From: an uncultured Eubacteriales bacterium
GTDB taxonomy: Bacteria > Bacillota > Clostridia > Peptostreptococcales > Anaerovoracaceae
Direction of reading: 5' to 3'
DNA: 41,101 bases
Assembly (NCBI GenBank): GCA_902774265.1
Contig: CACYHR010000060.1
Coordinates: 1 to 41,101 of the forward strand
In this document: piece after piece, positions 3,101-33,050 of the stretch
Position numbering within the stretch: position 1 is the stretch's first letter
Layout of the letters: each line of letters begins with the position of its first letter
Position numbers and translations under genes: made by a program
The notes under the pieces: model-generated
The model's input: the letters and a program-made list of their open reading frames with translations, nothing else
Told to the model about the DNA's origin: nothing
Database searches by the model: none

Positions 3101-4312
3101 CAGCATCAGAACCATGCCTGCTATCCCGGTATACTTTTCCCTGCGGTGTTCTGAATCAACGGCATGTCTATAGACGGCATGCGATATCAGAGCATAGATC
3201 AGCGTCGCGCCTATCGTTGTCGCATCCACAATCCAGCCGATGGCTGTCCTTCCCAGGAAAGGAATCAGGACGGAGACCGCGACAACGGCATATACAGCAT
3301 TGTTCGGAACTCCCCGTTTGTTCAATCCGGTAAGCGCTTTCGGAGCATCGCCTTCTCTCCCTGCCGCATACAAAAGGCGGCTGAGAGCCAGCATGTTTCC
3401 GATAAGGCTTGTAAGTATCACTCCAAAGAGTGCAAGCATCAGAATAACGATGCCGCTCTGACCCATATAGTGATAGGCAGCATAAAACGCAGGAACAGCT
3501 TTAATTCCTTCGAGATTTCCCATGTCACGTAAGTATTCAATCCAGCTTGCATATTCAGGCGGATAGGCAGAAACCGACAGAACTGATACGAAGATATAGA
3601 GCAGAGTGGTAAAGATCACGGAAAAAATAAGGACACCACGCACTTTTCTGACAGGAAATGTATATTCTTCTGAGAAATGCGCAACATTCTCGAATCCTAT
3701 GAAAGCCCATGGAGAAATGGCTGCTATATGCACTATCGTAAAGCCTGCAGTAAATATCACTGCGGCGGTAACCATTATCTTATTTGTCAGACGCGAGCTG
3801 AATGAACATAATATGCCGATGATCAGAACCGCGCATATGGACAGCAAGGCTTCGCCGAACCACACATCATATCCGAATATGCTGTAATGAAAACCGGCCT
3901 GATATGTATCGCCCAGAAAGAAGCGCGCGAAGAGAGGGACAGATGTAATATTTGCCCACAGTATGGCCATATATGTAAGGAAAACAAACCAGAAGGCAAG
4001 GAAGCCAAAATCCTTGCCGTTGGTACGTCTTTCAAAGGTGTAGATACCGCCGGCATCCTGCGAATTGCATATCATATACTGCAGATTCCATGTTATGACA
4101 AGGATGACCGCCAGTCCTATGATGAGTCCGAATACAGTGCCGAGAATACCTGATTTGATCAGATATGTGTTACAGGTAACAATAAAAGACCCCCAGCCTA
4201 TGCTGGTACCTATCGAAAAGGCCCATATGCCTGCAGGCGTAAATGACCTGCCCAGGCCGCCTCTGTTGCTGCTGTTGATTCCCGAGGAGCTTTCGGATCC
4301 GGTGAATTCCAT
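176..4312 (-). CDS. Amino-acid permease (APC) fused to a hybrid sensor histidine kinase with two receivers
   Basis: The protein has 1378 residues. Residues about 20-455 form an APC-superfamily transporter core with about 12 membrane helices; helix 1 has a glycine-rich SIGTSIGWGSF motif and a later helix has FIGFENVAHFSEE. A glutamate-rich extracytoplasmic loop (about 470-523) and one more helix lead to a short coiled coil, a PAS domain (about 580-690) and a second PAS-like module (about 715-835). The kinase core has the H-box SMSHEIRTPMN with His871, N-box near 980, DTGIGM, and GSTGLGM near 1055. Two receivers follow with phosphoacceptors Asp1163 (LMDWNMP) and Asp1301 (LMDVRMP). The ATG overlaps the stop of the upstream diguanylate cyclase (TAATG), so translation is coupled. 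By analogy with CbrA (SLC5-kinase fusion) the permease part may sense or import an amino acid; the ligand is unknown. Confidence 0.92.
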   Translation of the reverse strand: MEFTGSESSSGINSSNRGGLGRSFTPAGIWAFSIGTSIGWGSFIVTCNTYLIKSGILGTVFGLIIGLAVILVITWNLQYMICNSQDAGGIYTFERRTNGKDFGFLAFWFVFLTYMAILWANITSVPLFARFFLGDTYQAGFHYSIFGYDVWFGEALLSICAVLIIGILCSFSSRLTNKIMVTAAVIFTAGFTIVHIAAISPWAFIGFENVAHFSEEYTFPVRKVRGVLIFSVIFTTLLYIFVSVLSVSAYPPEYASWIEYLRDMGNLEGIKAVPAFYAAYHYMGQSGIVILMLALFGVILTSLIGNMLALSRLLYAAGREGDAPKALTGLNKRGVPNNAVYAVVAVSVLIPFLGRTAIGWIVDATTIGATLIYALISHAVYRHAVDSEHRREKYTGIAGMVLMLCFLLLILIPGLLPFHTMESESYILFIAWAVLGLLYYRGLIRRDTTREYGSQRIVVWSILLILVMFASMMWVSRATEIAANQAVERIFEYHQSHPDHDSSEEAIEERTEYLHEQAADISSTNTLYIAVSLGLFILFIAMILNNYRDALILDEKLTEAEEEAESARKIAELKETIASLLDNIPGMTFTKDAETGVYLACNQSFAEYAHKADPDGVAGLTDAEIFDPETARHFVEDDSLALSMDTPYIFFEDVPDAAGNLRNLQTTKLKYIDASGRTCVLGICQDVTDLVRIQHENAMTREAYESARSSGIMYTHIAQTLARDYTDMFYVNTDTEEFIEYRRGDESSNLSEMRRGWHFFSDCKNELAQNVWPEDRDAFLAAMDRRTLMKALERKNSFMMTYRQNGERGPAYVSIKISRMEEDEHFIIVGIENVDAEMRDAMAKSEALATALTAAEEANKAKTSFLSSMSHEIRTPMNAIIGLGTLALHDETINDQTRDYLKKIEGSARHLLSLINDILDMSRIESGRLILRREVFSLMSMMEQIDSMILAQCRDKGLIYESHILNHVDESYIGDDNKLREVLINILSNAVKFTEAPGTITLTLERTVRYEDHSTLRFCIRDTGIGMDNEFIPKIFDSFSQEDGSFSSKYGSTGLGMAITKRIVEMMNGSISVESEKGVGTEFAVTVTLRNSDQLEEESGESIDTSAFYVLVVDDDIIAAEHARMVLDEVGIRADICTSGEEALRLMEIQHTKHKPYNLVLMDWNMPGMNGMEASSEIRKQYDDESAVVVLTAYNWDDIQDDAEKVGVDSFLTKPLFASSILEQLEQIARNNNLKIFKEKDRADLSGRRILLAEDMEINAEILMDLLELENIVTDHAENGLEAVRMFEESEVGTYAAILMDVRMPEMDGLEATAAIRALDREDAKRIPIVALTANAFDEDVQRSMQAGMNAHLSKPVESEQLIRTLGELIYEAESKNK

Positions 4313-6765
4313 TATAACTGCCTTTCATTCTTTTCAGTTTTAAGTCTGTTCTTGTTTTCGTACATGTTCTGATCAGCGCGTTCAAATACAGGAGCCACAC
4401 TGCTGTCATGTTCGGATTTTGCCATGCCGCAGGCAATGACTATGCCTCCCGTATTCATAGCCTCCATATTCTGATCCCTGACCCGTTCTACCAGTTCATC
4501 AATGCACTCATAGTCGCCGCCCTGAGCGATAACAGCAAATTCATCGCCTCCTATACGGAAGACCGGACTGTGCTTGAAGATATTGCATACGATCCTGCAT
4601 GCATCCTTGAGATACTGATCTCCCGCATTGTGTCCCATGGTATCGTTGACTGTCTTAAGGTCATTTACATCCAGTATCACGATAGCATATTCAGGATCAT
4701 GGCCTTCTGATATCTGGACATTGAGTCGCTCCTCTGCCATCAGATATGCATGTCTGTTTTTTACACCTGTCAGAGCATCCACATTGGCCTCCATACGTGC
4801 TCTGGCAAGATGCTCCAGATACTCTTCCTCCTGACGCACCTGAGAATCGATATCATTGATGCCTACTATCAGGCGGGCCCCGTCTTTTTCTTCAACAATA
4901 GCTGCCTTGAGCTGCACATATACAGGCCTTCCTTCAAGAATTATACGATAGCTTAAAGTGAAGATGCCATTGGCTTCGATCTCAGCCATTACTCTCTCTT
5001 TTGTGAACGCAGCAAGGAAGCGGTTCAGGTCATCAGGATGGTTGATCCTTACAGCCGCTTCACGCACTGTTGCAAAGAAATCCCATCCTTCCTTTTCCTG
5101 TGAAAGCATACCGTAGCCTGCTGTCGAGCTGAACTCACGGAAGCGTCCTGACTTTGGCTCAACTATGTATACGCAGAGGAATACTCCGGTGAGAGCATTC
5201 AGCCTTGCGTAAGCTATCTGCTCTTCCTGCATGCGCTCTGCAAAGCGTCTCTGCTTCATCTCATTGTCAATATCCGTAATGCCTATAACTATGAAGCGGT
5301 CATCATCCTCCATGCGGGAGATCCTCATGCTGACATATATAGATCCTCTTTCCGACGCGTATCGGAAGGTTATTACAAAGAGCTTATCGCGTTCAAGAAC
5401 ATCAACAAGAGTCCTGCGGTCGATCGCCTTCAGAACAGCTGCCAGGTCATCAGGATGCACCAGCCGCTCTGCGGTGAGTCCGGCCTCTTCGAAGAAATGC
5501 CAGCCGCGTCTTGCCTCTGTAAGAATACCGCCCTCATCCTGCGTGCGGTACTGGACAAATTCTTCACTGTCAAGATTGACATAGTAAAGGAATTTGTAAC
5601 CGCGGGCCAGCGCCTTTGCTATATGCGTATATATCAGACCTGTGCTGCGGGCCTTTTCGTAAGCTTCCTTTGTAGTTGCATCCTCGTGCTGTATACGGAC
5701 CATATCGGTAACATCCTGAAATATTCCAAGCACACACTGCCGGCCTGATATATCCGTATATTTGATTTTTGTTACCTCCATCTGCCTTTTGTACCCCGCT
5801 GCATCGTGCATATCTTCATAGTAGATATACGGCTGATCCATCGAAAGTGCAATTTTATCATCGTCAGCGAAACGTTTCGCTTTGACCGGATCGAAGATCT
5901 CAGCAGCAGTTCGCCCGATCACAGCTTCGGGGCCGGATCTATGAGCAAATTTCGCAAATGCCGGATTGCAGGCGAGGTATTCACCGGTCACGGCATCCTT
6001 TGTAAATGTCATTCCCGGCATATTATCGAGCAGCGAGCTGATAGTATCTTTGACTTCTGTGATCTCTGCGGCTTCCTCCAGTTCACGTCTGTATCCTTCT
6101 TTTTCATCGCTGACCACAAATGTGTGCAGAAGACTGGTTCCCAGCATATATGCGATCGCATATAAAGGCAGATATGGGTACCACAGCTGAGCAAAAAGAC
6201 ATACTGCCATTATCAGTCCGAACAGAGTCAGTGAGCTGTGGATTTTTATGCGAGGAGATGAATCATCCCTGCTGTGCATCGTTACGGATGCGTACACTGA
6301 TATCAGAAGGAGCAATATGATCTGGCAGACAAGCAGAATATATCTGAGAGGAAGAGCCCTGTAAACAGCTGAGTCATCCACTGTAAACAGAACAGGACTG
6401 AATATGTTGACAGCAGCCATGGCAGTGATCGTACCCGCAATGATACGTCCTGCATACAAAAGCGAGCGTCCAAACGAGTCGTTCTTTCCGAAATATCCGA
6501 CAATGAACTGCGCCCAGAACAGAACTCCGGCCGCCATAGCCACAAAATACACTGTCGTGTCTGCAAACAGCAGGACCGCCAGCTTGCGGCTCTCAAGGAT
6601 TCCCCACGCGATATCGGTAATGTAGTACACGAAAACAGCGTACAGAAAATTCCTGTACACATTCCATACCGGTTTTTCAAAATTTCTTCCGGGTTTCAGA
6701 AAAACATCCTGATTCTCAATCAGCAATATAGCGGCTGCAAGCAGCCCGATCGCAGAATAATACAT
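4312..6765 (-). CDS. Membrane-bound PAS-GGDEF diguanylate cyclase
   Basis: The protein has 817 residues. The first 220 hold 6-7 membrane helices. A PAS domain follows (about 245-355), then two copies of a PAS-like module (about 370-505 and 510-640, each with a GWxFF segment, an HPDD motif, and a closing VGIxDID). A C-terminal GGDEF domain (about 650-810) has an intact GGDEF at residues 739-743, which should make c-di-GMP. No RxxD inhibitory site is seen five residues before GGDEF (FKHS sits there), so product inhibition is probably absent. PAS and first module are clearly homologous to those in the coupled downstream permease-kinase. The start at 6765 follows a purine-rich AAGGGTGG site. No EAL or HD-GYP domain is present. 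Confidence 0.93.
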   Translation of the reverse strand: MYYSAIGLLAAAILLIENQDVFLKPGRNFEKPVWNVYRNFLYAVFVYYITDIAWGILESRKLAVLLFADTTVYFVAMAAGVLFWAQFIVGYFGKNDSFGRSLLYAGRIIAGTITAMAAVNIFSPVLFTVDDSAVYRALPLRYILLVCQIILLLLISVYASVTMHSRDDSSPRIKIHSSLTLFGLIMAVCLFAQLWYPYLPLYAIAYMLGTSLLHTFVVSDEKEGYRRELEEAAEITEVKDTISSLLDNMPGMTFTKDAVTGEYLACNPAFAKFAHRSGPEAVIGRTAAEIFDPVKAKRFADDDKIALSMDQPYIYYEDMHDAAGYKRQMEVTKIKYTDISGRQCVLGIFQDVTDMVRIQHEDATTKEAYEKARSTGLIYTHIAKALARGYKFLYYVNLDSEEFVQYRTQDEGGILTEARRGWHFFEEAGLTAERLVHPDDLAAVLKAIDRRTLVDVLERDKLFVITFRYASERGSIYVSMRISRMEDDDRFIVIGITDIDNEMKQRRFAERMQEEQIAYARLNALTGVFLCVYIVEPKSGRFREFSSTAGYGMLSQEKEGWDFFATVREAAVRINHPDDLNRFLAAFTKERVMAEIEANGIFTLSYRIILEGRPVYVQLKAAIVEEKDGARLIVGINDIDSQVRQEEEYLEHLARARMEANVDALTGVKNRHAYLMAEERLNVQISEGHDPEYAIVILDVNDLKTVNDTMGHNAGDQYLKDACRIVCNIFKHSPVFRIGGDEFAVIAQGGDYECIDELVERVRDQNMEAMNTGGIVIACGMAKSEHDSSVAPVFERADQNMYENKNRLKTEKNERQL

Positions 6766-7853: not shown

Positions 7854-9428
7854 ATGCATAACATACAGGTAAAAGCTCTTTTAAAGCGATCATTTGCTAT
7901 TCTCGGCATCTGCATAATGCTGGCAGCTTTGCTGGGAGGCTGTGCTTCGAAAAAAGTTGATGACCCGCTTGCAGATGTCAAAACCTACAAAGATCTCAAC
8001 GATCCGAAATACCGCGTGGGTGTTTGCAACGGAACAACTGAGGGCGCTATTTGCGAAGAGGTTATTCCTAAGGCGCAGCGGCTTTATTACAATTCATATG
8101 TCGATCTTCTGACCGCCGTTGAATCACACAAAGTCGACGCTATCGTCGGTGATGATATGACCTGGATCTATTACAACGTTCAGACCGGCGGCAAGATCCG
8201 TATACTTGACGGTTTTCTCAAGCCGTATGAATTCGGATATATTTTCTCAAAAAAAGCCAGAGGCAAGGAGCTTCGCGATCAGCTGAACGAATTTCTCGGG
8301 AAGCTCGAAGCTGAAGGGACTCTTGAAGAGATCACACATATCTGGATGGATGAATCCGGCGCAAGAACGCTTTCTGTGGACTATAAGTCTCTTCCGGCCA
8401 AAAACGGAGTCGTTAAAGTAGCTACAACTTCCACCGGGCCGCCGTTCACTTATATAGAGAACGGAATAATTACAGGTCTCGATATTGATGTTATCTCCCG
8501 ATTCTGCCAGGAATACGGATACGGACTTGAGGTTACAGACATGCAGTTTGACGGCCTTATACCTGCTGTCAGCACCGGCAAATACGATATCGGAGCCAGC
8601 GCTATAACCATAACAGATGAGCGTAAGGAAAGTGTTGATTTCTCTGAGCCGTATTACTTCGGAGGAACGACAGCCGCTGTCTATAACGTAAACTACGGTT
8701 CAGATAAGAGTTTCCCGGAGAAAATCAAAGACAGTTTCAGAAAGACATTTATTAAGGAACACCGCTACAGGCTGTTTATTTCAGGTATTATTGTCACACT
8801 GCTGATCACACTGCTGTCGGCACTGTTCGGCACACTCCTGGGTTTTGCGGTATATATGCTTTGCAGAAACGGGAATCGTGCGGCAAATGCTGTAACGAAG
8901 ATCTGCGTCAGAATTATACAAATGCTGCCTGTTATCGTAATGCTCATGATCTTCTATTACATAGTTTTCGCAAATGCACCGGTAAGCGGAGCTTTCGTAT
9001 CTACCATAGTTTTTTCGCTTACCTTCGGAGCATCGGTATTCGGCATGCTTACATCAAGCATAAATACGATCGACAGAGGGCAGACGGAAGCTGCCTATGC
9101 GCTTGGATTCAGCAACCTGCGCACATTCTTCAAGATCGTACTGCCGCAGGCAATGAAGTTTTTCCTGCCGTCATATAAATCCGAGCTTGTAGCACTGATC
9201 AAAGCAACTGCAGTCGTCGGATATATTGCAGTACAGGATCTGACCAGGGTGGGCGATATTGTTCGAAGCCGCACATATGAGGCATTCTTCCCTATCATTT
9301 CTGTAGCTGTTATCTATTTCATAATGGCATGGATACTGATACTGATCGTTGACAGGATAGAAATAAAGATAGATCCGAAGCGCAGGAAAAGAGATGATAT
9401 TCTCAAAGGAGTAAAAACAAATGATTGA
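7854..9428 (+). CDS. Amino-acid ABC transporter: substrate-binding domain fused to permease
   Basis: The 524-residue lipoprotein has a signal peptide with lipobox LLGGC (Cys30). Residues about 40-175 match the second lobe and C-terminus of SBP_bac_3 proteins (VGVCNGTTEGA, VDAIVGDD, YEFGYIFSKK, LEAEGTLEEI). Residues about 185-285 match the first lobe (PPFTYIENG, GLDIDVI, FDGLIPAVSTGKYDIGAS, VDFSEPYY). About five membrane helices then make a HisM/GlnP-type permease with the EAA motif EAAYALGFSNLRTFFKIVLP. The lobes are therefore in reversed order, or are two half-domains. GGAGG lies 4 bases before the ATG. The ATPase gene follows with an 8-base overlap. Polar amino acid uptake is likely; the substrate is not determinable here. 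Confidence 0.92.
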   Translation: MHNIQVKALLKRSFAILGICIMLAALLGGCASKKVDDPLADVKTYKDLNDPKYRVGVCNGTTEGAICEEVIPKAQRLYYNSYVDLLTAVESHKVDAIVGDDMTWIYYNVQTGGKIRILDGFLKPYEFGYIFSKKARGKELRDQLNEFLGKLEAEGTLEEITHIWMDESGARTLSVDYKSLPAKNGVVKVATTSTGPPFTYIENGIITGLDIDVISRFCQEYGYGLEVTDMQFDGLIPAVSTGKYDIGASAITITDERKESVDFSEPYYFGGTTAAVYNVNYGSDKSFPEKIKDSFRKTFIKEHRYRLFISGIIVTLLITLLSALFGTLLGFAVYMLCRNGNRAANAVTKICVRIIQMLPVIVMLMIFYYIVFANAPVSGAFVSTIVFSLTFGASVFGMLTSSINTIDRGQTEAAYALGFSNLRTFFKIVLPQAMKFFLPSYKSELVALIKATAVVGYIAVQDLTRVGDIVRSRTYEAFFPIISVAVIYFIMAWILILIVDRIEIKIDPKRRKRDDILKGVKTND

Positions 9429-10506
9429 ACTCGTACATCTCAGGAAATCATATGATATGGGGACTCCTCTTAAGGATGTCAATGTGGTTATAAACGACGG
9501 AGATGTGATCTCCGTAATCGGACCGTCAGGCACGGGCAAGTCCACACTTTTACGCTGCCTCAATCTTATTGAGCGTCCCACATCCGGGCAGATCATATTT
9601 GACGGTGAGGATATCACTGCGCCGGGTTATGACATCAGCAAAGCCCGCAGAAAAATGGGCATGGTCTTCCAGTCCTTTAATCTATTCGGTCATCTGACGG
9701 TGATAGAGAATATCATGCTCGCTCCGATGGAACTGCTCGGTACCTCAAAGCAGGACGCATACGACGAAGGCATGAGGCTGCTCCACAAGGTCGGTCTCTC
9801 AGACTTCGCTCTCCGATACCCGGATGAGCTCTCCGGCGGGCAGAAACAGCGTGTAGCCATTGCCAGAACTCTGGCCATGGATCCCGAGGTAATACTCTTT
9901 GACGAGCCGACCAGCGCTCTTGATCCGACCATGGTCGGAGAAGTCGAAGCAGTAATCAAAGACCTCGCCGGCAGCGGTAAAACTCTCATAATCGTTACAC
10001 ATGAAATGCGCTTTGCGCGTTCGATCTGCAACCGTGTATTCTACATGGATCAGGGCGGTATTTACGATGATGATATTCCGGAAGTAATTTTTGATGCTCC
10101 TGAAAAGGAACTCACCCGCAGATTCATCCATCAGCTCAAGATACTCGAAATGTTCATCGAGAGCAAGACCTATGACTATCTCGGAGAAGGGGCGGAAATC
10201 GACCGCTACTGCAGCAAAAACCAGATACCGCCTAAGACTGCAAACCGCATCAGGCTTGCCATCGAAGAGCTGGTTCATCAGATCCTGCTACCGGAATTAA
10301 GTGAGCCGAAGATCCATGTACTCGTAGAATATAATGAGAAAAATGATAAGACCGTCGTAAAGATTCGTTACAACGGTCCTGAATTCGATCCTAAAACAAG
10401 CGGCAATGAACTGTCTCTTTCGCTGCTCAGATCTGCCGTATCATCCTTTGATCACTCCGTGATCGCGGAAGGTGAATACACCAATCAGATAGTATTCGAG
10501 CAGTAA
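9421..10506 (+). CDS. Amino-acid ABC transporter ATPase with C-terminal RsbW-like GHKL domain
   Basis: The protein has 361 residues. Residues 1-240 are a GlnQ/HisP-type ATPase: Walker A GPSGTGKST, signature LSGGQKQR, Walker B VILFDEPTSALDP and switch His in VTHEM. Residues about 245-361 look like the GHKL ATPase fold of anti-sigma factors (RsbW/SpoIIAB): an N-box-like RLAIEELVHQ, a G1-like IRYNGPEFDP and a C-terminal SLSLLRSAVSSF segment. GlnQ homologues normally stop near 245 residues, so the tail is an addition. It could be a nucleotide-sensing or protein-interaction module; whether it binds ATP is uncertain because the canonical DNG is changed to YNG. It is coupled to the permease by an ATGATTGA overlap with an AAAGGAG site inside the permease gene. 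Confidence 0.93.
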   Translation: MIELVHLRKSYDMGTPLKDVNVVINDGDVISVIGPSGTGKSTLLRCLNLIERPTSGQIIFDGEDITAPGYDISKARRKMGMVFQSFNLFGHLTVIENIMLAPMELLGTSKQDAYDEGMRLLHKVGLSDFALRYPDELSGGQKQRVAIARTLAMDPEVILFDEPTSALDPTMVGEVEAVIKDLAGSGKTLIIVTHEMRFARSICNRVFYMDQGGIYDDDIPEVIFDAPEKELTRRFIHQLKILEMFIESKTYDYLGEGAEIDRYCSKNQIPPKTANRIRLAIEELVHQILLPELSEPKIHVLVEYNEKNDKTVVKIRYNGPEFDPKTSGNELSLSLLRSAVSSFDHSVIAEGEYTNQIVFEQ

Positions 10507-10627: not shown

Positions 10628-11305
10628 TCATTTCTCAGAGCTGTGATCATTGATCATATCATTGATTGCAGCTCTGAATTCATCTGTAATATTACCAAGC
10701 AGCGTATTCCATGCGGGTTCGCATGCCATTATCTGCGGGATCAGGCTTTCCATCGCAAGATCATATGCGGATTCGTTTCCTATCCTCCACATATTCTCGA
10801 TAAAACCGCAGAATCGTCTGAACTGAACCGGATTTGTCGCAGATTCGCTTATCATCCGGTCTGCTACATTTACAAAAAAGTCAGTTAAGTCACTTTTGCC
10901 TTCAGCCGTATACGCCTCAAAGTCTTTACCCGCCTCACTGTAGACAGAATTAAGTGAAATCAGGAATCCCTGTATACTTTTGACACCGAAGCCCTCCCTC
11001 ACAGGACGCTCCGGCCTGATCCCGTCGAACTCAAAAGTTTCTATCCACGGATGTCTTTCATATCTTATACAGACCGGTTCGTCAATCTGCACTCCATCCT
11101 TTGGAAGATATACCTTTCCCAGAACAGAATCACATTCAGAGTATTCGTCTTGTGATGGTTTCTCGTCTTCGCCGGTAAAACTTACCGACATCTCCATTCG
11201 CGGAGGATCACATCACGTAGTATGCTCTATCACACTCAGAACGATATCTCTGAAGTCAAGTCTCTGCATATATTTAATTGCTTCGTCATTAAGTATTACA
11301 TGCAT
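10628..11305 (-). CDS. Candidate selenoprotein of the CC/Se-motif type with a C-terminal extension
   Basis: A conventional reading gives a 189-residue protein from ATG 11197, with no ribosome binding site. In the same frame upstream lie 30 good codons from ATG 11305 (MHVILNDEAIKYM...EHTT), then UGA at 11215-11213, then CDPPRMEMSVSF. This matches the layout I recall for the small CC/Se motif (seleno)protein family: an N-terminal DEAxxY helix, a CC/UC pair before PP, then VYLPKxG and a hydrophobic end. UGA would be selenocysteine 31 next to Cys32. Full length is 225 residues. From about residue 100 a different domain follows (GVKSIQGF, then DFFVNVADRM...FCGFIENMW), loosely like small immunity-type DUFs. 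Function is unknown; a redox role of the U-C pair is inference. It converges with the ABC operon. Confidence 0.65.
11187..11215 (-). promoter_or_regulatory. Candidate bacterial SECIS element
   Basis: Directly after the in-frame UGA the RNA can form CTCC/GGAG extended by an AU-rich pair past a one-base bulge, with a six-base loop GCGAAU. Eleven bases separate UGA from the loop G. This resembles the small hairpin with an exposed loop G that SelB needs, at the short end of usual spacing. Confidence 0.45.
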
Positions 11306-11482
11306 AATAATAATGTCATGGTCAAAAGGTCGCCGCAATTCTGTTAATTGTGCCGGTCAGCAAATTGACCCGATTATCGATTAGTTGATTGAGTTTTCAG
11401 TTGGCCCGCTTGCATGAATTTGTTGAATTTCACAACCAATTCATGTACGGCGATCTTTTGACCCCGGCAACATAATAATAAT
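11303..11482 (+). repeat. Palindromic insertion flanked by 12-bp direct repeats
   Basis: A 144-bp segment (11320-11463) is bounded by 16-bp inverted repeats, GGTCAAAAGGTCGCCG and CGGCGATCTTTTGACC, pairing throughout with one GU. Outside them CATAATAATAAT occurs at both 11303-11314 and 11471-11482, like a target duplication. It separates the selenoprotein start from the MATE stop. No open frame is inside. It is probably a miniature transposable element; the family is unassigned. Confidence 0.6.
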
Positions 11483-13283
11483 TATACCGTCACTGTAAAT
11501 ACATTAATGCCCAGGGTAAGCTGATACTCGGTCGATTTGATGATCCCCATAAACAAGCGGATACTGATACTCTTAGGCGAATCGTCCTTAGGATTGAGGA
11601 AGGCCTCACGATCCCTGGGATTATATGCTTTGCAGTCATCCTTTATGCTCATAAGGACATCACCGCCTTTTTTATTAACGATGCGGACTTCTATGGTATG
11701 CTTCTTTTTGTCCGCACCGAAACGGTCTTTGATGATACCGAGGCACAGTTCCTCAAGCGCGAGAGCAGCGCAGTAAGCTTTCCTCTCATCAAGGCCCCTC
11801 CCCTGACAGAAATCCTGGACTTTCTTAGCAATGCTGGTTGTGTCCTCCAGACTGTGAATGCTGGCATCGAATCGTTCATCGTCTGCGGCGCCGAAATCTG
11901 CCGGTATGGTCACCCATTCGCTCAGCGACCTAGGTATGCGCTTCCAGTAGATAATTGCATAGATCGGTCCGCACAGCGCTACTATGGCATATCCGACTAT
12001 AATTGTGATCATGGAACCCAGAACTCCCATTCTCGGTATCAGTATCAGTCCTATAGGGAGCATAGCAGCGATACCTTCCATGACAGACATCACATTTACG
12101 ATGACCGTCCTTCCAATCGACTGAAAATAATTGGAAAAGACGGCAGAAATCGTTACAAGGATTACAGTCAAAGCTCCAAAGCGCAGCGCCATTACCGTCA
12201 GCTTATATACTTCGGATGATTTATCGGAATAGAACAGACCTGCAACAGAACCCGAAAGCAGGAACGTAAGCGCAGCAGCAGCGAGCGCGATCAGCAGTCC
12301 TTTGGTAAAGACTGTTCTCATGATTGCAGTCATGGAACGGCCGTCTTCCTCTCCGTAGCATACGCTGGTCAGGATGCGGCCTGCCGCCGCGATGCCCTTG
12401 CCGACAGACTCGAATATCATAATCGCTATAGAATAAGTCGACATTGCCGCAACGGCTATCATGGTTGGATCATAAGCGGCCAGCAGATTGTTGAACAAAC
12501 CGCTCCGGATGGATGTCAGGAAAAACACCATAGCACTCGGGAACCCGATCTTGAGCATCCCCCGGACCTCATTCCATCTGATACTCTTAAAGGAATACCT
12601 GAGCGAAGCCTTCGATGTCAGGAAAAATGTGCCTGTTGTGATCATATTTATCCACTGGCTGAGAGATGTGGCGACTCCCAGTCCCGGAATGCCCATTCTG
12701 ATGACGGCAACGAAGAGTATATCCAGCACAACATTTGCGATCAGCATGGAACCGGTAGCAATAAAATTCCTCCTGTCCTGACCCTCAAGTGAAAGGAATG
12801 CCACGAACTGCGAACTGAGCACCATCGGAATCAGTCCGACACCTCTGCCCATTATATATCCGGACAGGTCGCTGAGAGCAGCCGGTGAAGCTCCGAATAT
12901 ACGCGCTATCGGCGAGGACAGGGTGAAGCTCACAATCGTCGCAAGGACGGTAAGCACTAATGCGAGTGTTAAGTTAAGCGAAAATACACCTTTTGTTCTC
13001 TCCAGATCGCCTGCGCCCATGTATCTGGCGCAAAGCACCTGCGAGCTCACCACCAGTACTGTTCCCGTCGCGACCCAGATCAGCTGGAAAGGTGAGTAAA
13101 GTCCGATCGTGAGTAAAGTCCGATCGTGCTCATGGCTCCGGCACCCAGAAAATTAGTGCCGACCAGACCGTCGACCATATTGTTGATTCCCGTTAGCAGC
13201 AGCAGAAATATCTGAGCCGGAAGCACTCGAAAAAAAAGGCCTGACAAAAAACGTCCGTCTGACTGTTGAATTGTATTGCTCAT
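11482..13283 (-). pseudogene. MATE-family exporter with RsbW-like domain, frameshifted by a 17-bp duplication
   Basis: Read from ATG 13283, the frame gives a normal MATE N-terminus (NNMVDGLVGTNFLG, AGAMSTIGLYS) and then runs into a stop at 13080. The rest of the gene, from about 13107, is open in the next frame to 11482. Cause: GTGAGTAAAGTCCGATC is present twice in tandem (13092-13108, 13109-13125). Removing one unit restores STIGLYSPFQLIWVATG and a continuous 594-residue protein with 12 membrane helices. Residues about 465-594 are an RsbW/SpoIIAB-like GHKL domain (ALEELCLGIIKD, MSIKDDCKAYNPRD). The gene could be a null allele, a reversible slippage switch or an assembly error. Substrate unknown; MATE proteins expel cationic compounds using ion gradients. 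Confidence 0.88.
13092..13128 (+). repeat. Perfect 17-bp tandem duplication inside the MATE gene
   Basis: The unit GTGAGTAAAGTCCGATC occurs twice, followed by three bases of a third copy. Because 17 is not a multiple of three it shifts the reading frame; deleting one unit repairs it exactly. Confidence 0.97.
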
Positions 13284-13333: not shown

Positions 13334-13584
13334 ATGAAGTCCTTTTTCATCCCGATATCATACCGCATTTTATCACAAACAGGCATGATATTTGTATACA
13401 CATTGATCAGACCCAGAACACCCTGGCACAACGGCAAGGTAGAGCGAAGCCACAGAAATGATCAGGAGCGATTCTACAATTTCCTGAGTTTCTATTCTTT
13501 CAAGGATCTGAAAGAGCAGATGTACCGATATATGCGAAGATCAAACAATATCCCGATGGCTGTGCTCGGCGTTCACTATACTTC
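13334..13584 (+). pseudogene. IS481-type transposase C-terminal remnant
   Basis: The plus strand encodes, from about 13406, IRPRTPWHNGKVERSHR, then ERFYNFLSFYSFKDLKEQM and RRSNNIPM. This is the end of the DDE integrase core typical of IS481 (IS3-like) transposases, including the glutamate in GKVERSHR. The N-terminal HTH region and the first two catalytic aspartates are missing, and the frame runs on into the murE antisense. It is a dead fragment between the MATE gene and murE. A small dyad, GGATGAA/TTCATCC, lies at 13334-13354. Confidence 0.8.
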
Positions 13585-13590
13585 AATTTC

Positions 13591-15108
13591 TTATTTCATG
13601 AATTCTATGACAACATCTGCATCTGAAGGAGTATCTATGTACTGGATGCCTCTCTTCTCCCTGGTCTCGCGGCCCTTGCCCGGCAGGAACAGGATCGTAT
13701 CATCATCCATCAGTGTGATAGCCTTCTTGATAGCCTCGACTCTGTCAGTGATGATCTCGAATTTGCCGCCTGCAGCTGCAACGAACTCACCAATCTCGCG
13801 GCAGATCTTGTTTACATCCTCTTCACCGTAATCCTCTTCAGTGATGATCGAGTATTCACAGTTGTGGCCGGCGATGGTACCGAGCTCTTCACGTCTTGCA
13901 AAAGCTTTGCCGCCCGGGCATCCGAATACTATGATCATTTTCTTGCCCGGGAACTCATCCTTGATCGTCTCGAAGAATTTCTCATAGCTCAGCTTGTTGT
14001 GCGCGTAGTCGACGATAGCGATCCTCTTGCCGTCCTCGCTGTAGAATACTTCCATGCGGCCCGGCGATATCGCTTTGGCAAGCCCTGATACCATGTATTC
14101 GAGAGGTACCTGCAGCAGAGCGGACATGGAGATAGCAGCAAGAGCGTTTTCCACGTTGATGGTACCGAACGTGCCGAGAGTGAACTCCTCGTCGAAATCA
14201 TCGTATCCTTCGATGCCCCTGCCGCGTACGCGCAAAGTGACTTTGCCCTCCTGAGACTTTACGTCATAGCCGTAGACATTGGCGCTGCCCTCCTTCTGGC
14301 TGAAGGTGATCACATACGGGCAGTCTTTGGAAGCTGCATGGATCCTGTCCTGCTCCTCGCAGTCGAGATTGACGGCTGCCTTGCGGCAGTGTGAGAACAG
14401 TCTGAGCTTGGATTCAAGGTAATCGTTGAAATCAGGATGCTCGATCGCACTGATATGATCCGAGCCTATGTTGAGGAATGCTCCTGCGGCAAAAGTGATG
14501 CCGTCAACTCTGTCATACTTGAGAGCCTGGCTTGAGACTTCCATGGTCAGATAGGTGATTCCTGTGCTGAGAGCATTATCCATGTGCTGATACATCTCCA
14601 TTATCTCAGGTGTCGTAAGGTGTGATTCTTCTTCGATAACGCCGTCATAGTTATCTATACCGGAACAGATAGCGGTTCTCTTACCGCCGGTTGCAGCCAT
14701 ATAGTCATCAAGGATGTAACGCATGAAGTAAGCTGTTGTGGACTTGCCCTTGGTTCCGGTAACGCCGACGAGCTTCAGCTCATCTGACAGCTTTCCGTAA
14801 AAGGTCTCTGCAATAACAGGCATTGCCACTCTGATGTCGCTTACGAGTATCTCAGGACAGTTGTCTGTACCGAGCCCGTATTCTGATTCTGTCACGTAAC
14901 AGGATGCGCCCTTGTCGATCGCGTCCTGCAGGTACTGCGCCCTGAAATGCGCTCCCTTGCAGACGAACAGGCTTCCCTCTCCCGCTTCCTTCGAATTATA
15001 TGTGACCGAGCTGACAACATTGCCGTCATTTCCCACCGCGGATCTGAGTATCCCCGCATTATCAAGAGTTGCGATAAAATCTGCTACCTTTACGATTCTC
15101 TTCTCCAT
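13591..15108 (-). CDS. murE: UDP-MurNAc-tripeptide synthetase, L-lysine-type MurE
   Basis: The 505-residue cytoplasmic Mur ligase adds the third residue of the peptidoglycan stem peptide, using ATP. The three Mur domains are present: N-terminal uridine-binding part (TYNSKEAGEGSLFVCKG), central ATPase with VTGTKGKST (116-124), HLTTPE and a catalytic segment DHISAIEHPDFNDYLESK, and the C-terminal domain (SPGRMEVF, DYAHNKLSYEKF, GGKAFARREELG). The IEHPxFxDY segment and SHLTTPE resemble lysine-adding MurE of Gram-positive cocci. The DNPR motif of the diaminopimelate enzymes is absent (EEDYGEED in that place). Lysine or ornithine may be the substrate; the ornithine genes nearby make ornithine worth considering. 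It starts 22 bases after larC with an AGGAGAG site. Confidence 0.85.
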   Translation of the reverse strand: MEKRIVKVADFIATLDNAGILRSAVGNDGNVVSSVTYNSKEAGEGSLFVCKGAHFRAQYLQDAIDKGASCYVTESEYGLGTDNCPEILVSDIRVAMPVIAETFYGKLSDELKLVGVTGTKGKSTTAYFMRYILDDYMAATGGKRTAICSGIDNYDGVIEEESHLTTPEIMEMYQHMDNALSTGITYLTMEVSSQALKYDRVDGITFAAGAFLNIGSDHISAIEHPDFNDYLESKLRLFSHCRKAAVNLDCEEQDRIHAASKDCPYVITFSQKEGSANVYGYDVKSQEGKVTLRVRGRGIEGYDDFDEEFTLGTFGTINVENALAAISMSALLQVPLEYMVSGLAKAISPGRMEVFYSEDGKRIAIVDYAHNKLSYEKFFETIKDEFPGKKMIIVFGCPGGKAFARREELGTIAGHNCEYSIITEEDYGEEDVNKICREIGEFVAAAGGKFEIITDRVEAIKKAITLMDDDTILFLPGKGRETREKRGIQYIDTPSDADVVIEFMK

Positions 15109-32908: not shown

Positions 32909-33050
32909 CCGGCAGGCGATCCGTTGTACGCAGAGGCTTGTCTGCGGCACACAGAACGGGCCGCTTAATGCTGCTACCTCTCGGTCCTGACATGGTTCAC
33001 GGTGTCCTGTTGCGCAGGGCCCCCGCGCACAACGCGTCGCCCGCCGGCAC
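32909..33050 (-). ncRNA. ffs: Signal recognition particle RNA
   Basis: The minus strand carries the conserved SRP core: ACCATGTCAGGACCGAGAGG followed by TAGCAGCATTAAG, the Ffh-binding domain IV. The ends pair as CCGGCGGGCGA with TCGCCTGCCGG (11 bp, one GU), and a T5 run follows at 32907-32902. The length is about 140 bases, between the small (about 100) and large (about 270) bacterial forms. It lies directly upstream of dnaX as in many Bacillota. Confidence 0.95.

Follow-up and report, generated by a model that had tools for sequence, protein, structure and literature searches.

A predicted two-domain selenoprotein with exchangeable C-terminal parts in the Anaerovoracaceae

According to a 2026 review, most characterized selenoproteins are thioredoxin-like and carry a redox-active motif (PMC13188914), and for that reason a DNA-binding domain on a selenoprotein, as proposed below for some relatives of the protein described here, would be unusual. 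Table 1 of the review enters the CC/Se motif family NF041239 with the motif CxxU, one selenocysteine and no named fusion, and the HesB-like selenoproteins with the motif UxGP. It contains no entry for a fusion with DUF7674 or a winged helix (PMC13188914), and one section of the deep-Sep paper likewise names no such fusion (PMC12013277). In the open-license papers searched we found no report of the family described here, and none of them mentions DUF7674 by name. Among NF041239 members the vicinal pair occurs as UC (Sec first), CU (Sec second) and CC, and either residue of the pair can be selenocysteine.

The gene described here lies in a stretch of 41,101 nucleotides (the window), which forms one contig, C60, of the 110 that make up the 3.26-Mb genome of an uncultured Eubacteriales bacterium. 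A reading made from the letters alone (the sequence-only reading) had proposed an unannotated selenoprotein with an additional C-terminal domain on the minus strand, and re-reading that strand reproduced the proposed frame: ATG at 11305, 30 sense codons, UGA at 11215-11213, 194 sense codons and a TGA stop at 10630-10628. The gene (10628..11305, minus strand) would encode 225 residues with one predicted selenocysteine, Sec31 (codon 11213..11215), whose partner is Cys32 (TGT, 11210..11212); residues 31-35 read U-C-D-P-P. Open reading frame listing without selenocysteine rules gives instead a 189-aa frame from ATG 11197 (10628..11197, minus strand) that lacks the Sec-Cys pair. A gene caller of this kind would probably cut the gene off at the UGA or take 11197 as its start, and thus leave out the active pair. 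The absence of a ribosome binding site had been held against ATG 11197. We saw no Shine-Dalgarno sequence there, but none was seen 5' of ATG 11305 either, so the two starts cannot be separated on this point. Comparison with relatives indicates that the gene does encode a selenoprotein and that the fusion is genuine.

Of 296 genomes in the same family, 30 have a match at E<=0.01, the window genome being one of them; one place was read per genome, G186 having a further weak place outside this count. The motif carries an in-frame UGA in 29 of these 30 genomes. It stands in the same column as in the window and is followed by Cys in 23 rows, the window counted, and in six divergent rows (L027-L031 and L033) it stands in the neighboring column of the aligned pair, which reads CU, TU or GU. 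The sole Cys-Cys row is L032, from genome G212. A second collection, obtained by an alignment scan of contigs, has U-C at the motif in 37 of 37 loci. It overlaps the 30-genome set, with many contigs common to both, and includes Dorea sp. D27 and a Lachnospiraceae isolate, both outside the family. Among the scan matches, the closest relatives with names belong to Mogibacterium and to other Clostridiales assemblies, often from ruminant gut, which suggests a place for the window genome in the Anaerovoracaceae. A Cys form was also sought in the contig scan, with two DNA patterns of which one was specific to Cys-Cys, and none was returned. When the window protein alone was the query, the contig scan gave 55 stretches with no confirmed relative. 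A scan of viral contigs gave 14 stretches, none confirmed. In a sample of the class, the family profile matched 6 of 391 genomes; the four that lie outside the family have CC/Se-like proteins, three with UGA and one with Cys-Cys. Homologs aligned across the UGA, which the sequence-only reading had proposed to look for, are thus at hand in both collections. Of the Cys-31 homologs that it had also suggested seeking, we found the distant Cys-Cys form L032 and no close one in the family.

The ratio dN/dS was 0.04-0.21 on the 3' side of the UGA (computable in 12 of 14 pairs, the other two giving no dS) and 0-0.28 on the 5' side (11 of 14 pairs), values which are rough where dS exceeds 1, as it does in several pairs. 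These ratios point to purifying selection on both sides of the UGA.

The N-terminal selenium domain comprises residues 1-100 (11006..11305, minus strand). The sequence-only reading had noted a resemblance to the CC/Se motif family, and this kinship is very probable on the profile comparison, although the window protein by itself does not match NF041239. In hhalign, the domain set aligned with NF041239 members at 97.1% (E 4.9e-11, 96 columns), E-values here being those of single pairs. The window set was compiled without L011 and L077 (long insertion) and without duplicates, and its window-clade rows were trimmed to their first 102-105 residues; the NF041239 set held 21 of the 22 places over the cut-off, L120, whose locus is cut short, being left out. 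When the C-terminal and winged-helix domains were used as controls, the pairs stayed at or below 1.9%, save one at 93.5% that reflects a 16-residue overlap of the pieces. With NCBIfam 20.0 the window protein gave no NF041239 match at E<=1 and no model recognized it; the Pfam and NCBIfam scans assigned it to no family, and DUF6918, at E 0.014 and below its cut-off, was not credited. Ten of the 30 rows match NF041239 at E<=1, the best being L028, whose 31.5 bits fall short of the 40-bit cut-off. Since the window protein itself misses the model at this threshold, its N-terminal domain is a divergent branch and not an ordinary member of NF041239. The family profile found no relative among solved structures (best E 0.56).

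About 125 further residues follow (101-225; 10631..11005, minus strand), and the extra C-terminal domain that had been read from the letters was borne out by alignment. The domain is likely to be DUF7674-like (Pfam PF24722), an assignment that comes from its homologs, as the window protein itself gave no DUF7674 match. Seven C-terminal domains were compared with this model: L070 reached 34.0 bits (gathering score 27), L071 matched at 7e-5 and L079 at 8.3e-4, two were weaker and two gave no match. All long, DUF7674-like forms of the 30-genome set lie within the genus of the window, and a C-terminal profile matched only the window genome among 391 genomes of the class. The DUF7674 profile matched four genomes at E<=0.01 among 60 relatives. 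Two loci of the same genus, L170 and L171, were considered as free-standing DUF7674 domains and rejected, being further copies of the selenoprotein. No relative of the C-terminal domain was found among solved structures (best E 0.077).

The same N-terminal domain occurs with other C-terminal parts. A tree of 50 rows, from which L029 and rows already present under another locus identifier were left out, contains 16 rows with the long C-terminal domain, 17 with a short tail, five with a winged-helix-like part and 12 with nothing recognizable. A Cys-Cys motif near the C-terminus (e.g. VCCIWQPP) is found in 16 of the 17 short-tail rows (L082-L084, L086-L095, L097, L100 and L103), and L099 has S-C. 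This second vicinal pair is a candidate resolving or co-ligand pair. The tail forms make up one clade (100/100) nested in the long-domain group, which suggests that the DUF7674-like domain was lost, or replaced by the short Cys-Cys tail, once. Winged-helix forms fall elsewhere on the tree and are less well supported; its deep joins are unsure owing to several long branches. These fusions (L096:3998-4522, L102:3992-4516, L018, L019, L021, L024 and L025) occur in Mogibacterium pumilum ATCC 700696, M. timidum ATCC 33093 and their relatives. Matches to winged-helix models are weak (HTH_27 in two of 30 rows, best 0.0046), and two of the C-terminal parts taken alone matched nothing in NCBIfam, so DNA binding is put forward as a proposal. 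The winged-helix form could possibly be a selenoprotein DNA-binding regulator.

Gene neighborhoods differ among the architectures, and no neighborhood common to all of them was seen among the 20 loci compared, the Pfam names of neighbors being taken from one locus per group. The short form stands behind a tRNA-editing-domain gene in three of four loci and ahead of a sodium:alanine symporter in all four; four long forms have in common a gene of the histidine phosphatase family and an ABC transporter of the methionine type; and the form attributed to M. pumilum sits between nucleoside diphosphate kinase and choline-related genes. Gene context was therefore rejected as a guide to function. In one genus, g37, the gene adjoins selenocysteine genes: locus L065 of G036 has selA at 3114-4505, selB at 4507-6360 and a divergent member from 6427 (L065:3114-6753), and G111 has the gene immediately after selB on contig C4.

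Several other features of the window were observed. The transporter genes on either side of the selenoprotein gene, an ABC ATPase gene (9421-10506, plus strand) and a MATE gene (11482-13053, minus strand), both have weak C-terminal HATPase_c_2 matches (E 0.033 and 0.0031, respectively). An imperfect inverted repeat of 16 nt (15/16, by eye; 11320-11335 and 11448-11463) lies in the spacer that separates the MATE gene from the start of the selenoprotein gene. A 24-nt piece of this stretch has one other match in the genome (C19:627-650) and the arms are absent from the repeat-finder output, so a mobile-element reading is unsupported. A frame at 13334-13831 (plus strand) contains the end of an IS481-type integrase core, overlaps a MurE-like gene on the other strand and is probably a transposase remnant. 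A bacterial small SRP RNA lies at 32927-33026 (minus strand).

What might such a protein do? In the explanation that we moderately favor as a whole, it is a two-domain selenoprotein acting as a Sec-Cys redox or soft-ligand switch. SelB and tRNA-Sec would decode the UGA at 11215-11213, guided by a hairpin at 11189-11171; Sec31 and Cys32 would be linked reversibly as a selenenylsulfide or would bind a soft ligand; the N-terminal domain would thereby serve as the switch; and the exchangeable C-terminal part, whether DUF7674-like, Cys-Cys tail or winged-helix-like, would relay its state to a partner. The functional part of this explanation, the switch, we hold more tentatively, at somewhat less than an even chance. 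It is suggested by the Sec-Cys pair, by the several architectures built on one Sec module, by the additional Cys-Cys pair that the short form carries and by the selA-selB-gene order in L065.

Another possibility, which we consider rather unlikely, is that the Sec-Cys pair serves permanently to bind or carry a soft metal, a metalloid or a selenium species, in the manner of A-type (HesB/IscA-like) carriers. NF041239 members align with HesB-like proteins in hhalign (92.6%, E 4.5e-7), a comparison that used 20 of 30 listed places, 15 of them below the TIGR01911 cut-off, with L152, whose locus is cut short, left out. One family row matches Pfam Fe-S_biosyn at 7.3e-5, and a gene placed after selA and selB, as in G036, would suit selenium handling. 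However, direct similarity to the HesB set is 1.1% in the window clade and 12.7% in the divergent rows, and only L031 of the 30 rows matches TIGR01911 (E 0.046). Any link of the window domain to the HesB/IscA fold thus appears to be indirect, running through the CC/Se family. Among the annotated neighbors, moreover, no metal-handling gene was seen.

A SECIS-like hairpin follows the UGA at 11171..11189 (minus strand), with an 8-bp stem, the loop GUU at 11181-11179 and 31 nt from the UGA to the loop; folded alone, it has an MFE of -9.7 kcal/mol. Published rules for bacterial SECIS elements call for a loop of 3-9 nt with a G within its first two positions, a stem of 4-16 bp, a spacing of 16-37 nt and an MFE <= -7.5 (PMC13188914). 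We applied these rules by hand and with a script, and the window hairpin satisfies the constraints on loop (3 nt, G in first position), stem (8 bp), spacing (31 nt) and MFE (-9.7 kcal/mol), so that the part of the sequence in which a SECIS element had been suspected (11170-11215) does contain a hairpin that fits. A smaller hairpin lies between the UGA and this stem (11192..11205, minus strand; arms 11205-11202 and 11195-11192), with seven bases between the UGA and its arm, which places the start of the arm at base 11 when the U of the UGA is base 1. The sequence-only reading had pointed to this smaller hairpin, and correctly so insofar as it exists and ATG 11197 lies partly in its loop; as a SECIS element it was rejected, because covariation supports the next hairpin downstream.

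In 36 distinct 24-nt sequences, 98.5% of 324 cells of the 11189-11171 hairpin are paired, against 23.8-53.4% in slid controls. This set includes divergent Sec forms, whose hairpin is one codon nearer the UGA. Changes on both sides of a pair were found in 40 cells against 10.5 in shuffles, and the covariation score was matched by none of 500 shuffles; both-side changes affect six of nine pairs, a count attained in 34 of 500 shuffles as well. When 48 distinct sequences were folded for minimum free energy, the second hairpin (at least six of eight core pairs) was present in 43, the first (at least four pairs, in a shifting register) in 45 and both in 40; the SECIS stem is absent from the predicted structure in five of the 48. 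A rule-conforming stem of at least 7 bp was found in 47 of 50 real genes (one counted twice, L018 being the same as L096) against a mean of 15% of synonymous recodings; L073, L088 and L094 lack such a stem. The folding energy of the window's own 61-nt region is ordinary, both against shuffles (z -1.21; 27 of 200 as low) and against synonymous recodings (17 of 100 as low), so the case for the SECIS element stands on the comparison across homologs.

The sequence-only reading had also asked after selA, selB, selC and selD, and all four were found in the genome. The genes for SelA, tRNA-Sec (selC) and SelB are contiguous on contig C2, selA as two pieces of one frame with 548 bits together (cut-off 267.9) and selB with 361 bits (cut-off 242.25). 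The selD gene, on contig C40, scores 366.5 bits (cut-off 125) and itself has one in-frame TGA (L042:1528-1530; GGT GGC TGA GGC GCC AAG, motif GG-U-GAK), which we take to be the catalytic Cys/Sec position. A second match to the tRNA-Sec model in the genome, at 48.5 bits, is barely above the 47-bit threshold.

Across the family, selB is over its cut-off in 81 of 296 genomes. It is present in 27 of the 29 genomes with a UGA form and in 54 of the 266 that do not carry the gene (Fisher's exact test on 27/30 versus 54/266, p 3e-14, uncorrected for kinship). The UGA-form genomes without selB over the cut-off are G288 (82% complete) and G186 (89% complete). In the Cys-Cys genome G212 (99% complete), nothing matched selB at E<=1e-40. 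Three genomes of the window's genus have selB and lack the gene.

With the sel genes, the conserved UGA, purifying selection, the covarying hairpin and the co-occurrence with selB taken together, we are nearly certain that the UGA at 11215-11213 is decoded as selenocysteine. It could still be a true stop, with a 30-codon peptide followed by a separate 189-aa protein, for which ATG 11197 is a possible start and the want of a Shine-Dalgarno sequence 5' of 11305 is convenient. Such an arrangement is very improbable in view of the UGA kept in the motif across genera, the selection on both flanks, the covarying SECIS element, the selB pattern and the alignment of the frame, across the UGA, with members of a known selenoprotein family that have Cys-Cys or Sec. 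An error of sequencing or assembly, which a 110-contig source might invite, or a reassignment of UGA to, for example, tryptophan is scarcely credible, as the same UGA recurs in many assemblies including those of named ATCC strains, the terminal stops of the homologous genes are TGA as well as TAA and TAG, and relatives (L032 and several NF041239 members) carry Cys in the pair.

With selenocysteine decoding preferred, the family enlarges the selenoproteome of the Anaerovoracaceae by one Sec module found in several architectures. A bolder and fairly improbable extension sees in the Sec domain a portable selenium-dependent sensor which carries its own SECIS element and has been joined to a DUF7674-like, Cys-Cys tail or winged-helix-like partner. 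If so, cultured Mogibacterium would hold selenocysteine-containing DNA-binding regulators, and a sensor located behind selB, as in one genus, could let the cell report its own selenium or redox state. Two bearers of the winged-helix form, M. pumilum ATCC 700696 and M. timidum ATCC 33093, are cultured strains, which makes this reading testable.

Compared with known systems, the window protein shares with the CC/Se family NF041239 a domain of about 95 residues in which a helix is followed by a vicinal pair with Sec or Cys, and differs from it in the sequence U-C-D-P-P, in an end of the form W-I-x-x-F-E-x-D-G and in the extra C-terminal domain. With the HesB-like selenoproteins (TIGR01911), distant relatives of the CC/Se family, the divergent rows L027, L031 and L033 share the reading U-x-G-P, whereas the window clade has no direct similarity to them. 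With respect to DUF7674 (PF24722), the homolog L070 passes the gathering score, while the window copy is too divergent to match. The hairpin resembles the bacterial SECIS model in its short loop beginning with G and then U, its stem length and its distance from the UGA, and departs from it in having an extra small hairpin between the UGA and the SECIS stem.
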